Position numbers and translations under genes: made by a program | In this document: in pieces, positions 4,440-62,873 of the stretch | Position numbering within the stretch: position 1 is the stretch's first letter | Layout: each line of letters begins with the position of its first letter | Source: Laccaria trichodermophora | Taxonomy: Eukaryota > Basidiomycota > Agaricomycetes > Agaricales > Hydnangiaceae | Length of the DNA: 64,000 nt | Assembly (NCBI GenBank): GCA_018417955.1 | Contig: JACTVC010000049.1 | Location: forward strand, 96,828-160,827 | Direction: 5' to 3' | Notes under the pieces: model-generated | Database searches by the model: none | What the model saw: only the letters and a program-made list of their open reading frames with translations | Told to the model about the DNA's origin: nothing

Positions 4440-4659
4440 AGATGGGGATCATACCTGGTTGAGGAGTGAGATGTCAAGATGAGAGCCTAGTGGAAAGGGG
4501 AATCTTGTTCTCACTCCTCAACTGTGGGGGGTATATCTAAAAATATATTGAGGCCTGGTGGCACACATCCAGGCATGGATCACGTGAGTTACAGGAGAGA
4601 GCAGCGGCTCTGAATTGTGTGTCAGCGGCTTAGCCTTGGACGGTTTTCATTGGACTTGA
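4440..4659 (-). repeat. Diverged older A-type repeat (A') flanking the Ngaro element
   Basis: This stretch follows the A repeat at 4825-5192 in order and spacing but with many differences: the 'gaggagtgagatg ... ctcactcctcaac' hairpin, the 'gcagcggctctgaattg' block and the final 'tcattggacttga' all have counterparts. It is therefore a remnant of an earlier member of the same family, cut exactly where B2 of the younger element begins. Confidence 0.6.
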
Positions 4660-4778
4660 CCAATGACGCTTAAGCTTGATGGCGTTACAGAGGCGACGTG
4701 GGACATGAGATAGCCAAAAAATCAGAAATCGGGTGCCGCGGGCAGCCGATTCCGACACATTTCCACTCGAGGTATGGC
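4658..4778 (-). repeat. B2 repeat of the Ngaro element (121 bp)
   Basis: Identical by eye to 5191-5311. It abuts the older A' repeat at a shared GA dinucleotide. Confidence 0.85.
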
Positions 4779-4824
4779 GAGGTATGTAATGTACATGTAA
4801 ATATATAGGAAGAGGGTGGGTGGG

Positions 4825-5192
4825 TGACGAAAAATGAGAGAAAAGCTCAACTATGAGGATAGAGTGAGCTATTGTAACAACAACCCTAGAGAAGAAAAGA
4901 AATTCGCACCTAGCTGAGGGAGTGAGGTGTTGAAACGAGAGCCCTACAGAAAGGGGGGTTTCATCTCACTCCTCAGCTGGTAGTGCGAATCTAAAATAAG
5001 ATAAGATCCAAGCGTGGATCATGAAGCGTGTATCCAAGCGTGGATGTCGAAGCACATATCCAAGCGTGGATATTCAATGAGCAGCGGCTCTGAGTTACGC
5101 GTCAGCGGACACGGAGAGTTTGAAGTTGTGCGCGTGTAACTCAAGCTTTGGCCAGCTTTCATTGGACTTGAGTAAACAACGTTTAAACTCGA
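4825..5192 (-). repeat. A2 repeat of the Ngaro element (368 bp)
   Basis: Identical by eye to 9958-10325 over 368 bp. It contains a long imperfect hairpin around 4913-4979 and three copies of the 14-bp palindrome-like motif ATCCAAGCGTGGAT at 5006, 5032 and 5058, exactly 26 nt apart. It overlaps B1 by the dinucleotide GA. Confidence 0.85.
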
Positions 5193-5311
5193 CCAATGAC
5201 GCTTAAGCTTGATGGCGTTACAGAGGCGACGTGGGACATGAGATAGCCAAAAAATCAGAAATCGGGTGCCGCGGGCAGCCGATTCCGACACATTTCCACT
5301 CGAGGTATGGC
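5191..5311 (-). repeat. B1 repeat of the Ngaro element (121 bp)
   Basis: Identical by eye to 4658-4778. It lies downstream of the recombinase gene and directly abuts A2, forming the B1-A2 junction expected from a circular intermediate. Confidence 0.85.
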
Positions 5312-5596
5312 TATAGTCCTATATTGAAGAAATAAAAAATAAAGTGATGAGTTCACATAGTGAAGGATGTGAGGAGCGGGGGGAAAGGTCTCGGTACATG
5401 CAGGATAAAAATTCAAAAAATTACAACTTGTCCGATAATAAAGTGGTTGATGTCCATAGTAGTCGAGATGGCGTAAGGCCATACGTGTTGGGGTTGATAA
5501 GAGTCCATGGGTGAGAAGAGTCTGTTGGTAAAGTAGATAAGAAAAGTCTATTGAGAAAAAGAAAAGGAAAAAAGGTCGTTTCTCCAAAGCGTGGAG

Positions 5597-6616
5597 TTAG
5601 TTCTCCAAAGCGTGGAGAAAGGTGGTTTGGGATCGCTTAGTTTGTCCGAAAAGGAGTGCTTGAATGAGCACGGGGTTTTTTCGAACGTAGATTTTGAAGG
5701 CGTCTGATGCCCATCTGCCAATAGCTTGAATTATTGAGGGTGGTACACCATTCTCGGCTAGGGAGGTGGCTCCTCCAGCACGGAGTGATTGGCTGGCAGT
5801 GTCGGAATTGAAGAATCGACGCAATCGTCGTATGAAAAAGGAGCGGGTAGGTACCGTGCCTTTGCTGGTGAGCCATAACAGTGAGCTAAATGGGAATTTA
5901 GCATCACGGGCTTGTAGATACTTCAAAAATTGTTTGTGAGGGTCAAACTTGTGTGGGTTTTTGCGTATGATGATCGTATTTCCTTTGAAAAACCTGTCGG
6001 CCTTATGTCCAGGCAGGAAGAACTTGTAGGAAACGTCGTCAGATTGCACCGAGCTGCGCTTTGTGACCTTTCTCGGATCTCGGAGTTCTGGGTCGTCAGG
6101 GTAAGTCATTTCACCTAGTCGGAGTAGTGCAAAGAAACCCGTCAATAGCTGAGCAAGGAAGAGCGTGTCGTCATAATCAGTGGAGGAGGAGAGCGCATCG
6201 ACGACGGTTTCGAGGTCTCCTATGGTGAGAGCACGTTTGCGCGAGGTGGGGACGGCTCGCATTCTTTTGCAGCCCTGCAATGTACGATGTACCAGAGCAG
6301 AGTTGCGAGAGGACCGAATATTCGGGAAGTAGGGTTCCAATTGATGGCATATGCCTGATAGGTACATTCCCACCGAATCGGGTTTGATGTGGTGGCACAT
6401 GTAGACGGTGAATAAGCTTAAGGTATCAGGGGTTGGGTCTAGTGGGTAGTCGTGCATTTTCACGAAGTTTAAGTAGGAATTGAGTGCTGATCCGTAATTT
6501 TTCCAGGTTGAATTGTCCACTGCTTGTCTGAGGGCAATAGCACGCTCATGGACGAGGCGCTCCCGCGTCCAGACTTCCCTGAGGGGTTGTCTGGACTTGA
6601 CATTTGACAAGATCAT
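5597..6616 (-). CDS. Tyrosine recombinase (YR) of the Ngaro element
   Basis: The 339-residue protein would integrate circular element DNA by strand exchange. The first catalytic Arg lies in LLRLGEM, the box-2 Arg in SLRAGGATSLAENG, and the nucleophile Tyr in IYVRKNP after IGRWASDAF; the usual box-2 histidine is replaced, as in related copies here. The frame is open upstream to 6712, but the start at 6616 is chosen because MI..SRQP aligns with the starts of the two other YR genes in this window (57089 and 60068). The stop is flanked by a 15-bp duplication (5582-5596 and 5603-5617). The frame is intact. Confidence 0.8.
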   Translation of the reverse strand: MILSNVKSRQPLREVWTRERLVHERAIALRQAVDNSTWKNYGSALNSYLNFVKMHDYPLDPTPDTLSLFTVYMCHHIKPDSVGMYLSGICHQLEPYFPNIRSSRNSALVHRTLQGCKRMRAVPTSRKRALTIGDLETVVDALSSSTDYDDTLFLAQLLTGFFALLRLGEMTYPDDPELRDPRKVTKRSSVQSDDVSYKFFLPGHKADRFFKGNTIIIRKNPHKFDPHKQFLKYLQARDAKFPFSSLLWLTSKGTVPTRSFFIRRLRRFFNSDTASQSLRAGGATSLAENGVPPSIIQAIGRWASDAFKIYVRKNPVLIQALLFGQTKRSQTTFLHALEN

Positions 6617-6635
6617 TTTTGCGCAGCCCCCAGCG

Positions 6636-8846
6636 TCAATTGAATATGGTAAGTCCAGGCACATGTTGTCGTGCAAGGTCGAAATTGCTCCGCAATATCG
6701 CATCGGCAACATAGTTAAGTTCTCCTGTGATATGGAGCACGCGTAGGTGGAGGCTACCCTTTATGAGGGTGTCGGCGGCACTGATGAGGATGCTGTTATA
6801 TCGCGGAAGGCATCGCAAAGTATTGAAGATGGCCACTGTATTATCATTATCAGTGTAAATCAATATGCGCGACGATTTTGTAGGGTGTTGTGAGTCATCG
6901 ATGTAGTGGAGTGCAGACAGGACACACAACGCCTCGAAGTAAAAAATTTGTTCCTTGTTTAATCCATCAGGTACAGGTGAGTAGAAGCCGACACATTTGT
7001 CAGGCCACCAAAACCCCATACCCTCAAGACAGGCATCACAGTATATCGTGAAATCGGCAGATGAGGCATCCCATCATAAATGTTGGATGAGGCGAATCCC
7101 TGAATCTTTTTCAAGGTGTCCAACTGCCCAGGACAAGTCGGCGCGAACAGCGTTATTAATTCTGACACATCTGTTTGGGGCATTTTTGCCACTTATCTTT
7201 GCATAGAAGTTGTTGAGAGCAGGTCGGAGGAGAGGGAAGACGTTGAAGCTCCAGTTCATCCAACCAGCTAAGCGTTGCCATTCCTTTAGTGAAAATCTTC
7301 GACGGTTGGTAATGAAATCGGTTATGGCAGCGATTAAGTCTTGCAATGAATCCGGGGGCATGGACATGGTCAGCTCATTAGCATCGACTTCTATTCCAAT
7401 GATGGTGAGGACTGAGCCATAGACTTGTTTCTTCTCCTTGTGTGGCAAGTTAATCTCATCCCAGAGTTGTAGGATCTTGACTTGATTCGTGGGCATGAAC
7501 TTTCGATAAGGTTCATACCAAGTCACATTGTCTGTATGCTCGGGACTGAACGAGTCGTCTGAGTATGTTCCCAGTAACTCCACATTGCGCTTTTTCTTCG
7601 CAATCCACGAGACGAGGGACATAAAAGCAATCCAGTTACAACCTGAACCGCGTCCGCCGAAGGCACAATTCCTGTCAATATGTAAGGAGCCATCAATCCG
7701 ATTTGCTTGCTTTATTTGCCAATAAGGGTGTACTGGTAGTAGCCAATAAGCTTCGGCGACGTCAGACTTGAAGAGGGTTCGAGGTGAGTCAGGACTTCGA
7801 CGATGCATTGATAGGAGAAACTCCCCGAGATGGCGCAGGTTATCTAGTGGGTACCCGACAATGTCATCACAGGGTATCATACTGTTCAAAGAGCAATTCC
7901 CTGCACTTTGGTGAGTAACCATTCACAAATCTGTTGAATGAGGTTTGGGAATGGCAAATACTGGCATGCAATACATCCCTGGTAAAAGTTTTTCTCCAAA
8001 TGCTTCAGAGAAACGCCCCTTGAATATTTCGTGATCACGTTGGTCACGTAAAAATTGGGCTTCCTTGGGATCATCCATTTGAGGGTAGGAAAGGTCGAGC
8101 GTGTCTGGATATTCTCCAATGTGGGTATCGGCCCATGGCCAGAAACCCTCACGGAGACCACGGCACACTGACTCTACGAATGGTTGGTTTGGGTGCGATT
8201 CCAGGAGAAGTTGAAAGCGGTCGACATAGATGGGGGTAACGATGTCGAAAAGGTTTGGGTTTTCTGTAATTGTCTTCATAGTGACAGGGTTAGCCAGTTC
8301 TGAGCTTGGAATGGTTGGCAGGGGTTTTGCTGTTTCAGACCAATCAGCGGACGATTTGGAGAAATAGTCATAACCCTCCCAGATATTATGACGAAGGTAC
8401 TTAGGTTGAAGGTCTAGAGCTAGATCCTTCTTTACAATCGCCAGACTTTTCGCCGTGACCTGTGCGTTTGCATTTTCTGCAGGCATGCTTGAATCGACAG
8501 TCTTCGGCTGAGTTCTTGCACCTGTTGATTGAATTATAATGGTGGCATAGTTCGGCTTTTGAGATCGTTCTGCCTGTGAGTCGCTTAGACGTGAGCCGAG
8601 AATGGTCTGACTCAATCCCGTCTGGCATGACGATGGCTGAATAGAATCTGGAAAAACGGTGGGTGTCTGTAAGTAAAGCATTCTGGCCTCCCCCGACTTC
8701 GTTCCTGATGGCAGTATCATACAGGATGATTTTTCGGTGGGAGGATGCGACTCTGGCTGAGAAATGGCCCTCAATGTATTCCCCATACTCCCGGAGTTCT
8801 CGCTCTCGATGAGGGAAAGCGAATTTAATCGCTTTGATGGTCGCAT
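6636..8846 (-). pseudogene. Reverse transcriptase-RNase H of the Ngaro element, two in-frame stops
   Basis: One continuous frame encodes an RT palm (FKSDVAEAYWLLPV; catalytic box GTYSDDSF around 7560-7550) followed by RNase H (WDASSADFTIYCDA, YTDNDNTVAIFN, YVADAILR) and no integrase, as in DIRS/Ngaro elements. TGA at 7925-7923 replaces the residue between KPHSTDL and MVTHQSAG, probably an Arg CGA. TGA at 7076-7074 sits where the family usually has Trp before WDAS. Near the end, the conserved tail QLTLGAAQK lies in another frame, suggesting one more indel. The frame is +1 relative to gag and overlaps it; the true start is uncertain. Confidence 0.8.
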
Positions 8847-9918
8847 TCCAGGCGCTCATCCACTCGCCGCTCGTTTGGACTTTCTTTGAAGGTTCTGATC
8901 GGCCAAGGGAGATTTCAGTAGATCCCACGCGTCCAGTGTTCTCCTTAGGAGCGGATATATGGTGCAATGATGAGAGCACTGCATCGAGGTTGACAGCTTG
9001 TCCTCGGACAATGTTGTCCCATTCTGAGCTTGGGAATCCGAGAGGCGCTGTTCTGGAGTTTTGAATCCACTGCTTAACGGTTTTGAAGTCTCGAGCGAAC
9101 AAGGAGAGTATTCTGCGTGATTCTTCACATTCCTTGTTTCCGGTGCGTCTCTCTTCTTCTTCTCGAGAGAACCAGGGCATTTGAGATTCGAAAACTCTAC
9201 GTTTTTTATTGGATTGCGCTCCTTCAACGTCAGAGTCATTGGCATCGTCATTGGTGTCGATGAAGTCTCCAGAAAGGGGTCTCTTAGACTTTCTGGATTC
9301 CCCGCTGATATGAGATATGAGTTCGTCGATCTCGGCGTCGCGTTGATGGTCTCTAACGTGTGCGGCTCGAGTGTTTGGTCCTTCAGGGAGCTGGAGTCCT
9401 CGTTGGACTTGTTCTCCTCGCCTAATCGCTGAAGCAGCGAGAGCCTCGATTTCGTTGAGGGTACGTGAGTAGGACTCAAGTGCTGCATCCTTAGTTTTCT
9501 CTGGTTTAGAGGTGTTCGAGTCCAGGACTGCGATAATCTTTGATAAGGCTTTGAGTTTTGTGATTTCTTTCCTTCGAAAGTCTTCGACAACATCATCCAT
9601 GAGGTTGATGCTTTCCTGTTCGAAGGATGTGTTTCCACCTTGTACATCCCCTGCATTCGAGTCGTTGCGTTCTTGACTCTGTAGCTGCTGTTCATTCGGG
9701 TTTGTCCCCATGACGATATCGTCTGATTGCTCATCTGGAGTCTCTTGAGTAAGGTCGGGATTCCCTGGTTCGGGTAAGGATTGTTCGCCTCCAGATTGCC
9801 CTCCATTCGATCCAATAGTGCCGGAGGACCCGTGTCTTCCTCCATCCGCTCCAGGAGCGATGGAGGGCTCATGTCCAGGTTCTGCAGATGCGAAGTAGAT
9901 GGCATGATCCTCACTCAT
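8401..9918 (-). CDS. Gag-like protein of the Ngaro element
   Basis: A 505-residue intact frame. The first ~200 residues are acidic, Q/N/S-rich and low in complexity. Residues ~250-430 form the conserved core that also occurs in the two RT-less elements (FPSSEWDNIVRGQAVNLDAV, GEWMSAWNATIKA, AFPHRERELREYGEYI). The C-terminus carries a CCCH-like cluster followed by a CCHC knuckle (CRKCKRTGHGEKSGDC). It would bind element RNA in particles. ATG at 9918 is the first in frame after A1. Confidence 0.75.
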   Translation of the reverse strand: MSEDHAIYFASAEPGHEPSIAPGADGGRHGSSGTIGSNGGQSGGEQSLPEPGNPDLTQETPDEQSDDIVMGTNPNEQQLQSQERNDSNAGDVQGGNTSFEQESINLMDDVVEDFRRKEITKLKALSKIIAVLDSNTSKPEKTKDAALESYSRTLNEIEALAASAIRRGEQVQRGLQLPEGPNTRAAHVRDHQRDAEIDELISHISGESRKSKRPLSGDFIDTNDDANDSDVEGAQSNKKRRVFESQMPWFSREEEERRTGNKECEESRRILSLFARDFKTVKQWIQNSRTAPLGFPSSEWDNIVRGQAVNLDAVLSSLHHISAPKENTGRVGSTEISLGRSEPSKKVQTSGEWMSAWNATIKAIKFAFPHRERELREYGEYIEGHFSARVASSHRKIILYDTAIRNEVGGGQNALLTDTHRFSRFYSAIVMPDGIESDHSRLTSKRLTGRTISKAELCHHYNSINRCKNSAEDCRFKHACRKCKRTGHGEKSGDCKEGSSSRPST

Positions 9919-9957
9919 AGGAGTTAGATTGAGGTACGATGATACGCAGTATTATAT

Positions 9958-10325
9958 TGACGAAAAATGAGAGAAAAGCTCAACTATGAGGATAGAGTGA
10001 GCTATTGTAACAACAACCCTAGAGAAGAAAAGAAATTCGCACCTAGCTGAGGGAGTGAGGTGTTGAAACGAGAGCCCTACAGAAAGGGGGGTTTCATCTC
10101 ACTCCTCAGCTGGTAGTGCGAATCTAAAATAAGATAAGATCCAAGCGTGGATCATGAAGCGTGTATCCAAGCGTGGATGTCGAAGCACATATCCAAGCGT
10201 GGATATTCAATGAGCAGCGGCTCTGAGTTACGCGTCAGCGGACACGGAGAGTTTGAAGTTGTGCGCGTGTAACTCAAGCTTTGGCCAGCTTTCATTGGAC
10301 TTGAGTAAACAACGTTTAAACTCGA
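9958..10325 (-). repeat. A1 repeat of the Ngaro element (368 bp)
   Basis: Identical by eye to A2 at 4825-5192. It precedes gag on the minus strand and is the likely promoter and leader region. Confidence 0.85.
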
Positions 10326-52794: not shown

Positions 52795-55266
52795 GGGTGC
52801 GAGTATTTTAAATTTGTCATCACAATGTTGATGGTTGTTGATTTTTGTTGAATCACATGTGACTCGGAAGTTTGCAAGTCGTGTTCTTCTTTCCACTTAG
52901 AGGCCATTCGACTGCTGCGCCATGATCCTCTCTTCATACCCTTGAAAGATAATCCATCTGAAAACTTCAACGCTATGGAAATGCAGGTGCTCACTCGACT
53001 GCAGTGAGCACGTTACCAGGCAATTCGCCGTTTCCTCAATCATTTTACCAACTAGTGCTCCCAGTGTCCTGATATCGTCGCCCTTCAAAATTTTAATCCT
53101 CTTCACTCGGCCATCTATCTGACCTCAGCCTTTCCCAAAACCGACAAATTCCGAACTACCTCAGTCGTCATTGTGTCTAGCCGCTTTTCTACTAGCCGCC
53201 AACGTTCAAGCATGTCCGTCAGGTGTTCTCTCCTTCCCTCAATAGCTTTCTCACTCTGCTTATTGCACATGTCGACCCTTTCCTTTTTCCGTATACCCAG
53301 TGGCTGTACCGTCGGCTCAATCATCACTTCGACGCACGCTGACGAACCTTCACATGCATCATGCCTCAAATCGAAACGATTGGGCTTGTTGGCCGACGGG
53401 GAAACCATGGTTCGTCAGGAGTGACATATTGAGTTATGGATTTCCACATAACTGACAAAGAGGAATTTTTTCTCAAAGGGTCTGTCTTACCCACGTATTT
53501 TGATTTTAGTCCGCTGCGGGATTTGTATCTCCGAAAATGAACGCTCAATCTCACCGCCAACACGCTTCGTCTATCTTGTCGTACTTGTGAACCGTACAAT
53601 GGACCGCCAAAAGAAACATGCAAGAATACTTTGACCTTGCCGAAAGGGAAACGGCGAGAATGACGGTGGATGCGTCCGTTCCCCGGTCTCATGATAATTG
53701 ACGAGATCTGGCTCCCAATGTCATTCCTGTCAGCAAATTTCCTTCCTTCTCCCTAGCCTTTCCCACCTAGTTGCCATCTTCTTGCCGTCTTACACGTACT
53801 GTCTCTCTCTACGCAACGATTATCTAGTGAGTATTTTCAGTTTCAGGGCATCGGACGGCCTCCGCCCAACTTACGCCACTACCACTAGGTTCATCTCACA
53901 TCTAAGCGTGGATTATACGTCGCTCTCAGGGCCGAAATCCGAACCTACTTAGAGCCTGGATCTGAAACAGTGACAGTAGTAATTGCCTTCTACACACGTC
54001 CTTCTGAGGCCATTGGCGCTCATAGATGCTAGACGCCGATATCGTCCCATGATCAGGGGCTGAATACAAAAATTCTAGATCATGCCCACGCCTTGAAGAC
54101 GCTAACGTGTATAGAAGGTGGGTCACATTGCTGCCCATCCTCGGCTCTATGGGTCCAACTTTGTTATACTACATAGGCACTTGCGAAATAACATCGCTTC
54201 TCTTTGTCGACCAGGTAATTACTATCCTATAAAATGAAACTGAGACTGTGTTAGATAGCTAACATGATTCCATCAGCCTTCAGACCGTATCCACGCTTGG
54301 GCTTAGATGTAACACCACCCGGCGCTTTTTCGGCCAAAGGCAATGATTAGGTGCTTCGCTCTGTAAAACTGAGTGCCGTTTGTTTACGACCCCACAGCCC
54401 AAGATCTCAACAGGACTCTCGATTTATCGCGGTTTGTTGTCTCAGAGAAGAGACTGCAGATGTGTCGGTCAGGACGGGTCCTTGAGACAACCTCGCCAGT
54501 GCGTGCTGATGATCGAATTGACGCACATTTTATCTCCAGGGCCCTGGTGTGGAAGTGATCCTACATCATCTCCTAGGTCTATGAAGAGGAATCCACCCAT
54601 CTTATCTCCTCCACTTAAACCCAACGTGAGAAGCAAATTTCGCCTGTTCAACAAATACTTATCTTCAGGCGGCTTGTTCATGATAATCCCTCTAAAGATT
54701 GGTTTGGAATTACTTGCTTGGTCTCGTAGCTCCATTCTGTGCTCTCAACCACGAAACGACTTGCCGGAGTTCGAATGGATCACTCTACACAAGTTAAATC
54801 CTTGTAAGCCCTCCCACATGTTTGCTGAATTGAATAGATATAAGCGCGCGCCAGTTGTACATCAATCGATTGGAGAGACGCGTCAAAACGTGTCGCCTAT
54901 TTGCAAGGAAAGGGAATTTCATAGCAGCAACATTTAATCTCGGCATCCCCATTCGATTCATCGCAAGCGTGACCCACCCACATTGAAAAAAAAGTCCAGA
55001 CAGGGTCTGACATAGCTATGAACTTATGTGCGACATGGCCCCCAAACTTTTCTAACGCTGAACAAACAGGTGTACCTGTAGCTCGACACACAGGAACATT
55101 GCTTTACATATGGTCAGCTGCTATATGTTTATCTTGACGCTGAGGCAAATATTATTAAGGTGAAATGCAAGACACGCTCAGGGATTCTCATCTGTGAGTC
55201 ATTGGAATAGTTTAAAAGCTTTGCTTGGGCAGGGAAGTTTTCATTGTGACTTTCTCCCCCAGAACG
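52795..55266. other. Unassigned stretch with a small inverted-repeat pair
   Basis: Frames on both strands, such as 53408-53115 minus (charged, possibly coiled) and about 54.4-54.9 kb plus, lack recognisable domains. A pair of inverted motifs, ACATCTAAGCGTGGAT at 53898 and its counterpart at 54289-54310, brackets 413 bp and may be a small element. Confidence 0.3.
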
Positions 55267-55729
55267 ATGAAGTTCAAATTCCTAGCAGCTCTGACTGTAT
55301 CCGCTCCTCTCATCTTCGTGAGCACCAACCCACTCACAATCAATGAACGTGCCCAGCCCATGGGCATCGACGTATCAAGATCTCTAAAATAAGCAATATT
55401 TATTTGCAAATATTAATTTTATATTAATAAAATTGGCATCTCTCTTAATAGGTTTCACATTATCACATATTTCAGTTATAGTGGTTAATCGAGTTTAATC
55501 GAGTTTAGAATTATTTTTACTGTAGTCTAATCGGGCGCACGGGTGCCTAGGGGACGTAACACATCTCCTCTCCCCGAGATATTCCTGGTCTCTGAGACCA
55601 GCGTTTCAGGTTGAGCAGAGTCGAACTTTCCTCTCTCTTCCTCCTACCCCATCCTTCTGAGGTAGCGGTATCTTGCATTCACATTACAACTCTTAGTTGC
55701 ATCGGATCAAATCCTCATTATTTCATCTC

Positions 55730-56989
55730 ATGTCTACTGGCAATGTCGTTGATGCAACTTCTACTCCTCTTGAAACTCCTATTTCTGGTGGTAACAACGA
55801 CACTACTCAAGGTGGTAACAACGGCGCAATTGATCAACAGCATCCAGGAACAACTTCCGGCGAACGAGGTTCTGGTAATCGCCGATCCTTGTCACCGGAA
55901 TCTGGGCAAAGTCGAGATCGAACACTTGGGAATGCCCCAGTTTCTATCGCTGCCCTTGCTGCTTGCAACAAGCCAATCGAAGACTTTCGTGCCTCAAACA
56001 TCTCAAAAGCCACAGCACTTAGCCGAATCTACACCACACTCACCGATGCATTACCAGCAGACCCGACAGGAGTTGAAGAGGCCTTTGCGTGCTATATCAT
56101 CATCCTTGAAAACCACGAACACCACCTTTCTGAAGCCGAACGCCGCGGCAACAGGCAACGTTCAAAATCACCTGTTGAAGAGCAATTTGACGAGGAGGAA
56201 CTGTCTCGCCCAACGAAACGTGCAAAACCTGATGAGTCTCAATACCCATGGGTTGTCTCAGATTTCATACATTCGGTCACTTTATCCCCTTCCCTCACAG
56301 CCTCACTCGACCTCCTCAAACTGTATGCAGTTGACCCTAAGGGCACAAAGTGATCCCTCATCAACTCACCCACATGCCCTGAATTCCCGGACTCTGAATG
56401 GACGAACATTCTTGCGGGTCGCGCAGTCAACCTCGACACAGTACTTACAGGTTATTACTCAACATCCAATAACGACGAGCGTGTTGAGTCAATCGGTGAT
56501 CTCGATATCAAATTTGGAACCGTTGCCCCAACCAAAATTGTTTCAAGTGCAGGGGAGTGGACAATCGCTTGGAATAGAGCATCTTGCGCAACGTCAATGG
56601 CTTTCCCTCATCGTGCGGGAGAACTGGCCGACTATGCTGAGTACATCATCGCACTTTTTGCAGCAACTGATATCCTGTTCCATGACTGAGTTATTCTTTT
56701 CGACAAGGCTGTTTGCCGTCGTGTCGGCAGCCGACGTGATCTCGAGCTCACTCATTTCGACAAATTTGCCAATCTTAGAACCGCACACATGGATTCCATT
56801 GGTGCAGCTGTTGTGCAACGCTTACCTATCTCAAAGGTACCCTCGACTTCACGCAAGAAACAGGAGGCATGCAACCGATGGAATGAGGGGCTGTGCTTGC
56901 TTGATGGCAGCCAGTGTCGTCAACTCCATGTTTGCAACAAGTGCTCCAAGGGTGGACACAAAGGACCTGAGTGCCCGTCCTCCCAGTAA
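55730..56989 (+). pseudogene. Gag-like gene of element 1 with two in-frame TGA stops
   Basis: ATG at 55730 (MSTGNVVDATST). The frame aligns along its length with gag of element 2 and with the core of the Ngaro gag. TGA at 56351-56353 stands where element 2 has CGA (KGTK-R-SLINSP), and a second TGA stands in FHD-R-VILFDKA. The C-terminus has the CCCH-like cluster and the CCHC knuckle CNKCSKGGHKGPEC. The +1 frame, by contrast, is open from 55611 to 57092. Confidence 0.75.
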
Positions 56990-57088
56990 TTTCATCCCTA
57001 ATATGTCTCGACCCACCACTTCCGATGTTACGCATTGTTACCTTTATCTGCAGCCCCCTCGATCACCTACGCTGGGGGTAATTAATAA

Positions 57089-58093
57089 ATGATCTCTATT
57101 TCACATGGTTCTCGCCAACCCCAGCATGAACCATGGACTCTTGATCGTCTAGTTCATGAACAGTCAATTGCATTGGGGATGTCCATCGACAACTCTTCTC
57201 ACATCACATACACATCAGCCCTGAACTCATATCTCACATTCTGCAAAATCCACAAGTTCAATATCACACCCACTGAACAAACTCTCAGCTTTTATGCTGT
57301 CTACATGTCATCACATATCAAACCCTCTTCCGTCAACTCTTATCTATCTGGGATCTGCAATCAGCTTGAACCTTTCTTCCCAGATGTGAGGAAAACCCGC
57401 AACTCTATGCTTGTGTCACGTACTATGACAGGATGTCAACGCCGCTTTGGAACTCCTGTAAAACGAAAACGCCCACTGTCAACCACTGATCTGCAAACTG
57501 TCATCTCTGCCATAGGGTCTTCCACTTGTCATGATGACAAACTATTCCTCTCAATGCTAGAGACAGGTTTCCATGGCCTCATGCGTCTTGGAGAGATTAC
57601 CTTCCCAGACAAAGTTGCACAGCGCAATTATCGGAAAGTTATCCTCCGGCACACTGTTGATATCACCAAGAAATCCTACTCATTTTGGCTGCCTGGCCAC
57701 AAGGCCGACCGCTTCTACGAAGGAAACTTGATTATCATCAAAAAGACAAACCTCCCAACCAACCCATACTCATTTTTCACCTCATATTTACAATCACGAG
57801 ACACCCTTCATCCATTAAAACCTGAACTTTGGTTGTGTGAGTCTGGCAGTGTGCCGACCTGCTCCTGGTTCATGAAACAACTCCATCATTTCTTCCCTGC
57901 TGATATTGCAGGCCAATCTATGCGTGCTGGAGGTGCCACTTCTCTTGCTGAAGCTGGTGTACCTCCCAACATCATTCAAGCCATTGGACGATGGGCATCG
58001 GATACCTTTCAGATCTACATCAGAAAGAATCCTGTTCTTCTCCAAGCTATGTTATTTGGGCACCCTGCCCACCAACCAGCTACAAACATTTGA
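57089..58093 (+). CDS. Tyrosine recombinase of RT-less element 1 (intact)
   Basis: 334 residues, intact. Catalytic Arg in LMRLGEI, box-2 Arg in QSMRAGGATSLAEAG, GRWASDTF and nucleophile Tyr in IYIRKNP. The N-terminal SAM-like core-binding part (SALNSYLTFCKIHKF) aligns with the Ngaro YR at 5597-6616. The ATG overlaps the TGA of the preceding RNase H tail frame (ATGA), suggesting coupled translation. It could act on all three elements in the window if expressed. Confidence 0.8.
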   Translation: MISISHGSRQPQHEPWTLDRLVHEQSIALGMSIDNSSHITYTSALNSYLTFCKIHKFNITPTEQTLSFYAVYMSSHIKPSSVNSYLSGICNQLEPFFPDVRKTRNSMLVSRTMTGCQRRFGTPVKRKRPLSTTDLQTVISAIGSSTCHDDKLFLSMLETGFHGLMRLGEITFPDKVAQRNYRKVILRHTVDITKKSYSFWLPGHKADRFYEGNLIIIKKTNLPTNPYSFFTSYLQSRDTLHPLKPELWLCESGSVPTCSWFMKQLHHFFPADIAGQSMRAGGATSLAEAGVPPNIIQAIGRWASDTFQIYIRKNPVLLQAMLFGHPAHQPATNI

Positions 58094-58400
58094 TCTATTG
58101 ACTTTTTTTTATTTATTTAACATTGGACTATTTTCTCTGACTTGTACTGCCTCAGATTTTTATCCCGGCCTCTTACAAACATCACTCCACTCCACTCCAC
58201 TCAACTTCTTTCTTCCTTTTCCAAAAGACACTTACATAATCTCCCCCCCTTCCCTTTCCCTCACTCACATTTATAGGTAATAGGACATCAAGGCCGTGAA
58301 ATACATTTCTCACGGGTTGCCCTCACATCGACGCAACCCTGTTTTTGCCTATTATCTTTCATTTCTATTCAAGATTATGGACCTCCTTCCACCCTTGCAC

Positions 58401-58630
58401 GATTAAAAATATTTTTACTATAGTCTAATCGGGGCACACAGGTGCCTGGGGACGAAATATTCTCCTCTCCCTGAGATACTCCTAGTCTCAGAGACTAGCG
58501 ATTTCCAGTGTGGGCGAGCCGTATACTTGAGACTCACCCACGGGGGGAGTCACCTCAAGTTGTAAGACAACTCCCTCGTCTTACCTCCACTCGAGCTTGC
58601 TATCGGTTAGCTCTCGTTTGTGCGTTTACC
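58401..58630 (+). repeat. A1 repeat of element 2
   Basis: About 95% identical by eye to 61367-61606; it lacks 10 nt (GTCGAGTTTA-like) near the left end. It contains inverted motifs CTAGTCTC/GAGACTAG. Confidence 0.75.
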
Positions 58631-58685
58631 TTTCAACCTATGGCTGCATCAGATCTTTTCAACATCTTCAATCACTACACTTTCT

Positions 58686-59978
58686 ATGTCTACGAGCAAT
58701 GAAGCTGTTATTACTCCTAATTCTGGTTCTGCTGCTGAGACAAATTCCACACAACAATCCAATGCTCAAGTTGGAGAACGAGACTCGAATTCATCAACAG
58801 TCAATCCAAATCAAGGTCAAGAACCCATTGTTGACAACGAGAGGTCTGGCGCTACAGGAGACGAAGAGTTTGCTGCCGGTAGATCTGGGAATTTCCCAAT
58901 TGCCAATGCTGCTCTCGCCTCTTGCAATGCTATCCTTGAGGACTATCGTTCATCTCGGATCTCCAAAGGGATTGCACTGTGCAGAATTTACACGACTTTA
59001 TTGGAAGCAGTCCCTGATGATGAATCGACTTCAGCAACAGTTGAAGAGGCATTCAGCTGTTTTCTCACCATTATTGAGAATCATCAAGGACACCTCGCAG
59101 AAGCTGAACACCGTGGACGTCGTCGACGTTCAGAAAGTCCCCAACCTATTCCAGAAGCAAATCCCGATGATGAAGACCTTGGAGACATCCCATCTCCTAA
59201 ACGAGCAAAACCCGATGACTCAAAATTCCCCTGGACAATTTCGGACTTCATTCATGGTGCTACACTCTCTCCGTCACTCTCTAAATCCCTTGAGTTACTC
59301 AAACTCTATGCTATTGATCCAAAAGGAACTAAACGATCCCTCATCAATTCTCCCAGCTGTCCTGAGTTTCCAGATTCGGAGTGGACGAATGTTCTCACAG
59401 GACGTGCTATCAACCTTGACGCTGTCCTCACTGGATATTACTCAACATCCAATAACAACGAACGAGTCGAGGAAATCGGGGACTTCGAAATTCACTTCAG
59501 AACAGTCAATCCAACAAAAATTGTATCTACCACAGGAGAGTGGAGCATCACTTGGAATCGGTCATCACAAGCTACATGCGCCGCTTTCCCACATAGAGCT
59601 GGCAAGCTTGCACAATATGCTGAGTACATCATTGGGCTATTCGCTGCAACTGATGTACACTTTCATGATCGTGTTATCCTTTTTGACAAGGCAGTTCAGC
59701 GACGTGTCGGTGCTCGTCGAGACTTGGAGCTCACTGACTTCAACAAGTTCTTCGACCTTAGATCGACCCACATGGATTCAATCGGTGCCACTGTCGTCCA
59801 ACATGCATCCACTGCTACCCCAAATAAACCCTCAGTGACTTCACGCAAAAAGCTATCTGAACCTTGCAACCGCTGGAATGAAGGGTTGTGCATGCTTGAG
59901 AGTACTCAGTGTCGCCGGCTTCATGTTTGCAGCAAGTGCCTTTCATCTGGGCACAAGAATAATGACTGTCCAAAGTGA
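58686..59978 (+). CDS. Gag-like protein of RT-less element 2 (intact)
   Basis: 430 residues from ATG 58686 (MSTSNEAVITPNSG). The low-complexity acidic N-terminus is followed by the conserved core (NFPIANAALASCNAILEDY, FPDSEWTNVLTGRAINLDAV, GEWSITWNR, FPHRAGKLAQYAEYI) and a C-terminal CCCH-like cluster plus CCHC knuckle (CSKCLSSGHKNNDC). It would package element RNA. Upstream frame openness into the A repeat has no ATG. Confidence 0.75.
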   Translation: MSTSNEAVITPNSGSAAETNSTQQSNAQVGERDSNSSTVNPNQGQEPIVDNERSGATGDEEFAAGRSGNFPIANAALASCNAILEDYRSSRISKGIALCRIYTTLLEAVPDDESTSATVEEAFSCFLTIIENHQGHLAEAEHRGRRRRSESPQPIPEANPDDEDLGDIPSPKRAKPDDSKFPWTISDFIHGATLSPSLSKSLELLKLYAIDPKGTKRSLINSPSCPEFPDSEWTNVLTGRAINLDAVLTGYYSTSNNNERVEEIGDFEIHFRTVNPTKIVSTTGEWSITWNRSSQATCAAFPHRAGKLAQYAEYIIGLFAATDVHFHDRVILFDKAVQRRVGARRDLELTDFNKFFDLRSTHMDSIGATVVQHASTATPNKPSVTSRKKLSEPCNRWNEGLCMLESTQCRRLHVCSKCLSSGHKNNDCPK

Positions 59979-60067
59979 AGCTCTTTCATGCCCATTGTAT
60001 GCTGATTCGCCTTTTTGCCACCTCACTATCGTTCAACCCCCTCAATTGACGCTGGGGCAGCCAAAAA

Positions 60068-61071
60068 ATGATTAGCATCTCACGTGGCTCTCGCCAACCT
60101 CAGAGAGAGCCATGGTCACTAGACCACCTTACGCACGAACGGTCTATTGCACTCGGATTATCCATTGACAATTCTTCTCATCTCACATACACATCCGCAT
60201 TGAACTCATATCTCACCTTTTGCAAAATCCACGATTTTCCCATTGAACCAACTCAACAAACACTTAGTTTCTTTGTTGTTTACATGTCCGCCCACATCAA
60301 ACCTGACTCTGTCAACTTGTATCTCTCAGGAATTTGCAATCAGCTAGAAGTATATTTCCCTGACATTCGAAAAAATCGCAACAGCATCCTCGTATCACGC
60401 ACTTTGGCTGGCTGTCGTCGACGTTTTGGGACAACAATACGGCGCAAGCGACCCTTATCAACAGATGACCTTATCACCGTTCTGTCTCAACTGCAATCAA
60501 CTCCCCACCACGATGAAAAATTGTTTCTCGCTATTCTATTCACGGGTTTCCATGGGCTTTTCCGCCTCGGCGAGCTCACTTTCCCTGACAGAGTGGCCTC
60601 TCGTGACTATCGTAAAATCATGCTATGTGACACTGTTGACATTACTCAAACCACCTACTCATTGTTGCTGCCTGGCCATAAGGCCGACCGCTTCTTTGAA
60701 GGTAACATTGTCATTATTCAGAAGACAAATCTTCCTACAAACCCTCACAACATCTTCACAACATACATCTCCTCTCGCAATACACTCCACCCCTTCAACC
60801 AGAACTTTGGTTATGTACATCTGGCACTGTGCCGACACGTTCCTGGTTCATACGCAAATTACGCCACTTCTTCCCATCAGATATTGCAGGCCAATCCATG
60901 TGAGCCGGCGGAGCCACTTCCCTCGCCAAAGCTGGTGTACCACCTCACATCATTCAAGCCACTGGGCGTTGGGCATCAAACACCTTCCATATATACATAC
61001 AGAAGAATCCCATTCTTCTACATGCAATGCTGTTTGGTCGTCCTGCTCACCAACAAGCTACTGGACATTAA
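60068..61071 (+). pseudogene. Tyrosine recombinase of RT-less element 2 (frameshift and lost catalytic Arg)
   Basis: ATG at 60068 (MISISRGSRQPQREPW). The frame is intact through LFRLGEL and LPGHKADRFFEGN, then shifts near 60798; the rest (SGTVPTRSWF, GRWASNTFHIYI) continues in another frame to TAA 61069-61071. TGA at 60901-60903 replaces the box-2 catalytic Arg (SM-R-AGGAT). The protein would be inactive. Confidence 0.8.
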
Positions 61072-61242
61072 CTTCCTTTCCCATTTTCTGGTATCTCACA
61101 ACATCCTTCTGTTCTACTCCACTCAACTTTTCTTTTCCCCACAGACATTTTTCTTTTCTTTCCCCACAGACATTTTCTTATTTCCACAAACAGACAATTC
61201 CCCTCCCTCCTCTTCCCCTTTTCTACATATTATAGGTATTAT

Positions 61243-61366
61243 AGGACAACACTACCATCAATGGACATCTTTCTTGTGAGATTCTCCAGGCGCACAGCGC
61301 CTGGGGGACTCTGTGTACACCTATTTATGCCTTTACTTAAGATTTCAAACCTTTGAACCCTCCCAC
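61243..61366 (+). repeat. B1 repeat of element 2 (124 bp)
   Basis: Near-identical to 61642-61765, with the same length; both run from AGGACAAC to CCTCCCAC and contain GGCGCACAGC.CCTGGGGGAC. Confidence 0.8.
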
Positions 61367-61606
61367 GATTAGTCGAGTTTAAAAATATTTTTACTATAGT
61401 CTAATCAGGGCACACGGGTGCCTGGGGATGAAATATTCTCCTCTCCCTGAGATACTCCTAGTCTTGGAGACTAGCGATTTCCAGTGCGGGCGAGCCGTAT
61501 ACTTGAGACTCACCCATGGGGGGAGTCACCTCAAGTTGTAAGACAACTCCCTCGTCTTACCTCCACTTGAGCTTGCTATCGGTTAGCTCTCGTTTGCGCA
61601 TTTACC
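61367..61606 (+). repeat. A2 repeat of element 2
   Basis: Near-identical to 58401-58630. It begins GATTAGTCGAGTTTA directly after B1. Confidence 0.78.
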
Positions 61607-61641
61607 CACCCTCCTGCACCCTCTTTTGTTATGTATTGATT

Positions 61642-61765
61642 AGGACAACGCTACCATCAATGGACATCTTTCTTGCGAGTTTCTCCAGGCGCACAGCACC
61701 TGGGGGACTCTGTGTACACCTATTTATGCCTTTACTTAAGATTTCAAACCTTTGAACCCTCCCAC
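61642..61765 (+). repeat. B2 repeat of element 2 (124 bp)
   Basis: Right end of the array; the host sequence TTAGAAGAAATACGG follows at 61766. Confidence 0.78.
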
Positions 61766-62873
61766 TTAGAAGAAATACGGCATCAAATCTAGAAAAGTTA
61801 TGTAAATATACTTTATGATTAGGGTATTTTCTTTTCATAAGATAAAGTATTGATTCTCTTAACATTTTTTTTCTGCGTAGCTTGAGAAATCGGATAAATA
61901 AAAGGATTTAAGTACTTTTTATCAACCAAACGTCAACTGGGCGACTGTCAAAGCAAATGGGCTTACTTTTGCTTTCATCAAGGCAATGGAGGGCACCGGT
62001 AAGTGCACTAATATCTTCTCTGTGTCTGACAATGACTGCCACATAGGTTTCATTGATCCTACGTTTTCCAATCATTACACAGGGGTGACTAATGCTGGAC
62101 TGATCCATGGAGCATACCACTTTGCGCATCCAGACATTAGCACTGGCGCAGATCAGGCAAATTTCTTTCTTGCGCATGGTGGTCAGTGTTATGGACGACA
62201 CAAATGATGTCCATCTCACTTTCATTTCCACAAACAGGCGGATGGACCAAAGATGGTACATAAGTACATCATCCATAGAATGTTATCGCCACTGACATGC
62301 TTAGGTATCACTCTCCCTGGTGCTCTTGATATTGAGTGTATGTTCCAGTTGATTTCGCATTGATGTTTCCAAAGCTGACAAGGATATTATTTAGATAATC
62401 CCAAGGGGGATACGTGCTACGGCTTGAGTCACGATGCAATGGTTTCCTGGATTACAAGCTTCTCCAACACCTACCATGCGGCAACTGCACGGTACGTCCA
62501 TAATTAAGGGCAAATTTCATGACACCTGAGTATACTGTATTTCTTAGGTACCCAAGTGAGTCTTGAATTTATTGATTTGATGTCTAAAACTTATATTTTT
62601 CAACTGTCATTTATACAGCACCCAATTGGTGGACAGAATGTACAGGGAACAGTCCCGCCTTTGGCAATACCAACCCCCTCTGGCTTGTAGCAAATAGCAT
62701 CGGGGACTTGCCTGCAGGATGGTCGTGAGCATCTGTTCATGGCCTTCCCAAAATTGACTTGACTGACTTGCCGTGCGACAAGCTTCACAACTTTCTGGCA
62801 GTATGCAAATTCTGGGCCAAACCCTGGTGATCAAGACCTCTTTAATGGTGAGGAAACTGGCTTGAAGAAGTAA

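Follow-up and report, generated by a model that had tools for sequence, protein, structure and literature searches.

Reverse transcriptase (RT) is the defining enzyme of retrotransposons. TOC1 of Chlamydomonas is a non-autonomous relative of those retrotransposons that use a tyrosine recombinase (YR), and TR-GAG and similar plant gag-only elements with long terminal repeats (LTRs) keep gag, obtain pol from elsewhere and have no YR. The Ngaro elements of Agaricomycetes carry a YR and split direct repeats in the order A1-B1-A2-B2 (Muszewska et al., 2013, PMC3783388). The available passages of that survey report many incomplete copies and trees built from RT, RNase H and YR together, and they describe no lineage without RT. 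Here, we analysed a 64,000-nucleotide stretch of the genome of Laccaria trichodermophora (the window; G000:C44:96828-160827, genome of 59 Mb), in which an earlier note had described two adjacent Ngaro-like copies, called e1 and e2 below, with gag followed directly by YR. These copies belong to a genome-wide family of RT-less elements that has the YR and the split repeats in common with the Ngaros of Agaricomycetes. With the Ngaros of its own genome it shares gag, the end of RNase H and the repeat core, but it lacks RT-RNase H and forms a separate clade in both gag and YR. Of the RT and RNase H by which Ngaros are recognised, only the RNase H tail remains in the RT-less copies. By descent, repeats and YR, this is a lineage of Ngaro origin, yet by the defining RT it is not Ngaro; it most likely works like a Ngaro with a borrowed RT.

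The nearest described systems differ in what they have kept. The ORF1-less (gag-less) Ngaro types of Cafeteria are likewise multi-copy deletion derivatives, according to the passages available, but they have dropped gag and keep RT (PMC8547959), whereas the elements described here have dropped RT and keep gag. SIRE, the short form of VIPER, is also a non-autonomous relative of YR retrotransposons and consists, in the accessible part of that report, of joined VIPER end pieces (PMC6681497), whereas in the present elements selection maintains two genes. Cryptons resemble the RT-less elements in having a YR and no RT, but have neither terminal inverted nor long direct repeats as far as the available text goes (Kojima and Jurka, 2011, PMC3212892), whereas the RT-less elements have long A and B repeats. 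The YRs of the RT-less elements fall among Ngaro YRs in our trees, which held no Crypton row. To our knowledge, Cryptons have no gag. DIRS1-like elements have inverted terminal repeats, whereas the long repeats found here are direct, and TR-GAG and LARD elements have an LTR at both ends and no integration gene of their own, in place of the split repeats and the own YR found here. Neither an RT-less gag-YR lineage nor a Ngaro pol overlapping the whole of gag is described in the passages of the literature that we searched, supplements and subscription papers aside.

The window copies and their genome-wide family

The copies e1 and e2 stand in tandem on the forward strand at 55.5-61.8 kb (all coordinates are window positions unless a contig is given). 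Element e1 begins with an A1 repeat (55499..55683; length taken from another copy, c16), of which the first ~100 bp are 97-98% identical to the A repeats of the copies c34, c16 and c8a. It continues with a gag (55730..56989) containing two in-frame TGA codons (56351-56353 and 56687-56689), an intact YR of 334 aa (57089..58093; Pfam PF00589, E 0.023, under its cut-off) and a B1-like stretch (58280..58402), placed by position and by eye against the B repeats of c8a and c34. It has no A2-B2 of its own, and its B1-like end directly adjoins e2. All four repeats that the earlier note had ascribed to e2 could be located: A1 (58403..58630; 95.6% to A2), B1 (61242..61366; 96.8% to B2), A2 (61379..61606) and B2 (61641..61765), the right insertion end. 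Between A1 and B1 lie an intact gag of 430 aa (58686..59978), whose CCHC-like end shows a visible Cys/His pattern and a weak zf-CCHC match (E 0.36, below cut-off), and a YR (60068..61071) broken by a frameshift and by one TGA, which falls on a conserved Arg. The gag stop and the YR ATG are separated by 99 bp (e1) and 89 bp (e2), close to the 90-100 bp noted before and too short for RT. Just before YR, both copies carry the tail PP..LTLG..K, with a TGA overlapping the YR ATG. The earlier reading of this tail as a remnant of RNase H is borne out by the full Ngaros, as it closes RNase H in six of the seven near RT-bearing Ngaros inspected; in the seventh, n44, a shift has put it out of frame, and it was not seen in two distant Ngaros.

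A stretch of 8191 bp containing both copies is shared by C44 (window 54374-62562) and C36 (G000:C36:332715-340905), near the contig ends, with two one-base homopolymer differences. The duplication is probably an unresolved contig overlap. The two differences coincide with the frameshift in the e2 YR, absent from the C36 duplicate, and with the odd spacer length of e2, and sequencing error at the duplicated end of the contigs is therefore the probable cause of both.

Own-genome searches with YR and with gag each gave a clear top tier, and our counts are lower bounds. At least 24 RT-less loci of ~3 kb each carry gag and YR with the same junction. They correspond to 26 rows, of which e1x and e2x are the window pair on the C36 duplicate; two gag-only fragments on C1 were not counted. 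In 25 of the 26 rows, 90-114 bp separate the gag match from the YR match, and the remaining one, c32b, has an unchanged junction and an insertion early in YR. This uniformity excludes a junction arising by chance, and the common junction in many copies is what the earlier note had taken as the mark of a lineage. None of the 63 RT matches listed for the genome lies inside a listed RT-less copy; two weak ones, of 24-26% identity, begin at a distance of 3.6 kb from the centre of c8a and of 8.2 kb from that of c6. The gap between gag and YR likewise offers no room for a methyltransferase domain, for which no dedicated search was made. Leaving the duplicate aside, every pair of rows differs in at least one flank (all flanks but the 3' one of c1b were compared), c23 and c34 having partly similar 5' flanks.

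From the A repeats, the junction and YR, we distinguished five subfamilies: S1 (e1, c34, c16, c8a, c45), S2 (e2, c1d, c7a, c23), S3 (c18, c9, c29, c21, c1c, c6), S4 (c49, c1a, c32a) and S5 (c8c, c8b, c7b, c24, c32b). The YR frames of c45, c6, c7b, c24 and c32b are broken, and these copies were assigned by junction and repeats. One further copy, c1b (G000:C1:2199855-2202332, L055), combines an S3-like spacer with S5-like B repeats, as a chimera or a nested insertion, and stands outside the five subfamilies.

Between subfamily representatives, the ratio of nonsynonymous to synonymous divergence (dN/dS) is 0.10-0.18 for gag (eight of ten pairs; the other two are dS-saturated) and 0.05-0.11 for YR (ten pairs), the ratios being rough because dS exceeds 1 throughout. 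Judging by these ratios, both genes are under purifying selection, so that both proteins worked while the lineage spread. Among young copies of the same subfamily dN/dS ranges from 0.28 to 0.80, which fits decay following insertion, and three more diverged pairs gave 0.12-0.16; within subfamilies, one value is undefined and three gag pairs are not comparable.

Trees and relatives

In a YR tree of 27 rows from this genome (midpoint root; c45, c6, c7b, c24, c32b, c1b and e1x left out, e2x standing for e2), the 18 RT-less rows form one clade (96/96). Its sister comprises seven RT-bearing Ngaros, and two more distant Ngaros lie across the midpoint root. YRs of the five RT-less representatives are 56-63% identical to those of their own near RT-bearing Ngaros. 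Possible helpers in the same genome are seven RT-bearing copies whose open frames run to 1080-1099 aa. The full Ngaro that the earlier note had reported at 4.7-10.3 kb as the ancestral order is indeed present (n44, 4654..10304, minus strand), with gag, RT, RNase H, YR and A1-B1-A2-B2, but its pol contains two in-frame TGA codons and, by the trees, the full Ngaros here are a sister group of the RT-less lineage and not its direct ancestor. At window 4599-4659, the B2 side of n44 is flanked by short stretches resembling its own A repeat, as if it had inserted into the core site of an older copy.

Relatives of the gag were found in Laccaria bicolor, L. amethystina, Galerina marginata, two Mycena species, Crucibulum laeve and metagenomes. 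The gags of L. bicolor and L. amethystina are close to S1, S2 and S3, a comparison of gag alone that did not include element layout. A read-through query found fused gene models. Comparison of 27 new proteins against gag, YR, RT and RNase H showed four that fuse gag to YR without RT: P0100 of Tricholoma matsutake, P0103 of Mycena maculata, P0109 of Mycena crocata and P0088 from a metagenome. Most of the others bear RT, and five show YR alone and are uninformative. P0091 of Armillaria ostoyae was rejected as an RT-less relative: its model has no RT, but its YR falls together with an RT-bearing one, and the gag sits on a long branch among RT-bearing gags. We also paired gag and YR clusters by identical contig size and source, using 76 of 86 gag clusters and 119 of 120 listed YR clusters (1454 YR found). 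Seven pairs match exactly, against a mean of 0.59 (maximum 4) at shifted sizes; some of the seven fit badly in identity and are probably chance. Matched contigs of 3131 and 2487 bp are too small for RT, which is circumstantial.

The gag tree (88 rows, 65 of unknown layout, several RT-bearing rows on long branches) places all 14 RT-less rows, nine of them from this genome, on one side (100/99) against nine RT-bearing rows, with the Crucibulum gag outside the RT-less clade. In the YR tree across fungi (71 rows, 33 of unknown layout; two distant Ngaros as outgroup; P0103 and P0109 short), 15 RT-less rows, again nine from this genome, form one clade (97/97) nested among 23 RT-bearing rows, including Mycena. 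Mycena proteins join our RT-less clade in both trees and the Tricholoma protein does so in the YR tree only; by this placement, the lineage extends beyond the present genome. Since the clade is nested among RT-bearing Ngaros, one old loss would be the simplest history, and the common tail, frame and clade argue for a single loss event across the subfamilies. The earlier proposal of an old deletion that spread as a lineage of its own thus agrees with both trees, each with one clade for the RT-less rows included, and with the number of loci, the five subfamilies, the high synonymous divergence and the low dN/dS.

The reading frame across gag

Beyond what had been noted before, the RNase H tail closes a reading frame lying in +1 across gag. 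Gag starts were examined in 22 rows (21 loci; c24, c32b and c7b have no readable gag start), the rows of a given subfamily not counting as independent. All 22 gag AUGs are preceded by a pyrimidine at -3 and followed by T at +4, and each row has a second AUG (AUG2) in the +1 frame, with a purine at -3, at +13 (S1-S4) or +10 (S5). From AUG2, open reading frame 2 (ORF2, a "ghost pol") spans gag over 425-457 codons, or 647 in c23, where it contains an insertion, and its terminal TGA overlaps the YR ATG. The frame is stop-free in nine rows, has TGA stops only in seven and is broken or interrupted in six. The ORF2 of e1 (55743..57092) has 449 stop-free codons; that of e2 (58699..60070) is an intact frame solely in the C36 duplicate, with one internal TGA there.

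The full Ngaros show comparable starts. In n44, AUG2 stands at +13 and is followed by one +1 stop, and in a distant Ngaro (L067, 1434-4622) AUG2 at +7 opens a 1062-codon pol frame that covers gag, RT and RNase H and stops within YR. Ngaros usually lack ORF overlaps according to the available passages of Piednoel et al. (2011, PMC3266345). We infer that ORF2 is pol in full Ngaros and, in the RT-less elements, a bare ribosome track bringing ribosomes to YR. One RNA would run from A1 to B2, and ribosomes would begin at the gag AUG, which is weak, or leak past it to AUG2. The leaked ribosomes would read ORF2 through gag up to the UGA overlapping the YR AUG, where some might restart and produce YR. 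The overlap of pol and gag, kept open after the loss of pol, would also suggest how the polycistronic Ngaro RNA is translated.

It is quite possible, although short of an even chance, that ORF2 is open for another reason, such as base composition, RNA structure or its being an ancestral relic, and that YR is translated otherwise, e.g., from a subgenomic or spliced RNA. Two observations fit this explanation and weigh directly against our translation scheme: control YR genes are themselves short of +1 stops (66 vs 86 expected; P below 0.01 in three of eight), and AUGs occur upstream of the gag AUG in the DNA of 14 of 20 leaders. One such AUG shares the ORF2 frame in c18, c9, c1c and c21. Moreover, chance alone would leave the spacer open with P 0.21-0.48 in each subfamily (product 0.004), so that its openness by itself is weak evidence, and the fused gag-YR models in public data could mean that introns lie close to the spacer. 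Against it, the +1 frames of seven gags contain 2 stops where synonymous codon shuffling expects about 44, while their +2 frames contain 238 against 268 expected; the spacer length is a multiple of three in 23 of 26 rows; and AUG2 is present in every row examined. The spacer peptide itself drifts between RT-less elements. The comprehensive proposal is that of a long-lived class of RT-less YR retrotransposons across mushroom families. It would keep ORF2 (~425-457 codons) solely as a ribosome track, with a drifting peptide and a frame open from AUG2 through gag to the UGA over the YR AUG, and full-Ngaro pol would overlap all of gag, contrary to the published statement. We regard the case for this whole as evenly poised.

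Probable copying through RNA and the proposed source of RT

The long repeats A and B are direct, not inverted, and follow the plan A1-B1-A2-B2 with the internal pair downstream of YR. The A1/A2 pair was measured in 16 of 24 loci, with 89.9-100% identity within copies, and A repeats of different subfamilies are ~53-84% identical. The remaining loci have no detectable A/B pair, partly owing to a missing flank, truncation or tandem repeats. Within 15 copies (c7b omitted, unequal length) A1 and A2 differ at 127 positions, including 123 transitions, with 112 at CpG; B1 and B2 differ at 42 in 13 copies, of which 32 are CpG transitions. Between subfamilies, CpG transitions account for just 6-15 of 42-79 A differences in six comparisons. 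As the differences within copies are mostly CpG decay, A1/A2 and B1/B2 were almost identical when inserted, as expected if the elements were copied through RNA. Copies c16, c8a and c8c show no A1/A2 difference and look recent. In the Ngaro replication model, the internal B1-A2 restores the cDNA ends, which would account for such near-identical repeats. Elements copied through RNA without an RT of their own would have to obtain it in trans, and the earlier presumption of RT in trans thereby gains indirect support.

Genome-wide, the repeat decay of the RT-less copies is almost all CpG to TpG and their internal stops are mostly TGA, which suggests that the elements are methylated.

We consider it likely that an old Ngaro lineage was stripped of the RT-RNase H portion of pol, in the simplest case a single time, and then multiplied as gag+YR elements with RT borrowed in trans from full Ngaros. 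Gag would pack the element RNA, full Ngaros in that cell would supply the RT-RNase H to copy it, with ends restored from B1-A2 as in the model above, and the element's own YR would insert the product at the short core TCGAGTTTA. This core, CpG variants counted, is present at 15 of 16 RT-less junctions and at five of seven RT-bearing ones.

The YR is the best conserved part of the elements and no RT is encoded, so that they might have become DNA transposons whose YR excises circles and reinserts them without RNA, as in Cryptons. We find this unlikely: each of the five subfamilies has at least one copy with the internal B1-A2 junction, gag is still under selection, and the repeats were almost identical when inserted, whereas movement as DNA only has no need of such a junction or identity and would let the repeats drift. 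A supply of RT by LTR elements or long interspersed nuclear elements in place of Ngaros would suit the distance between the gags of RT-less elements and Ngaros, but is, judged from the Ngaros alone, improbable as well, since both groups have the repeat plan, the tail and the core in common and this genome contains RT-bearing Ngaros with long open frames. That the copies are dead debris of independent deletions in ordinary Ngaros, as their many TGA stops and the incompleteness of most fungal YR elements identified in the available passages of PMC3783388 might indicate, is hardly credible in view of the uniform junction, the one clade, the five subfamilies, the low dN/dS and the separate insertion sites.

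Several points weigh against a supply of RT by Ngaros to a widespread lineage. RT-less and RT-bearing gags are only 32-38% identical, which counts against ready access of a foreign RT to the RT-less RNA, and fold comparisons of gag gave no match backing a capsid role. Two of the seven RT-bearing downstream stretches lack the exact core word, A pairs were measurable in only 16 and B pairs in only 13 of the 24 loci, and the public RT-less relatives were traced through four fused gene models and matching contig sizes. If RT is nevertheless borrowed from Ngaros, a lineage that diversified without it, with gag and YR under strong selection, suggests RT as a long-term shared good among mobile elements. 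It would provide a natural test of what is needed in cis (gag, YR, repeats) against what can be borrowed, and surveys based on RT overlook such elements.

The e1/e2 pair lies between two halves of an apparent GH25 (lysozyme-like) gene, at window 55265-55390 and 61900-62200. The right half matches Pfam PF01183 (E 5e-16), and the left half, a signal peptide followed by GIDVS, was read from the sequence by eye. At window 58390-58410, A1 of e2 abuts the B1-like end of e1 right at the recombinase core. The missing A2-B2 of e1 could have been deleted by YR acting at two core sites, or the pair could be a mixed S1/S2 dimer that arose during copying.

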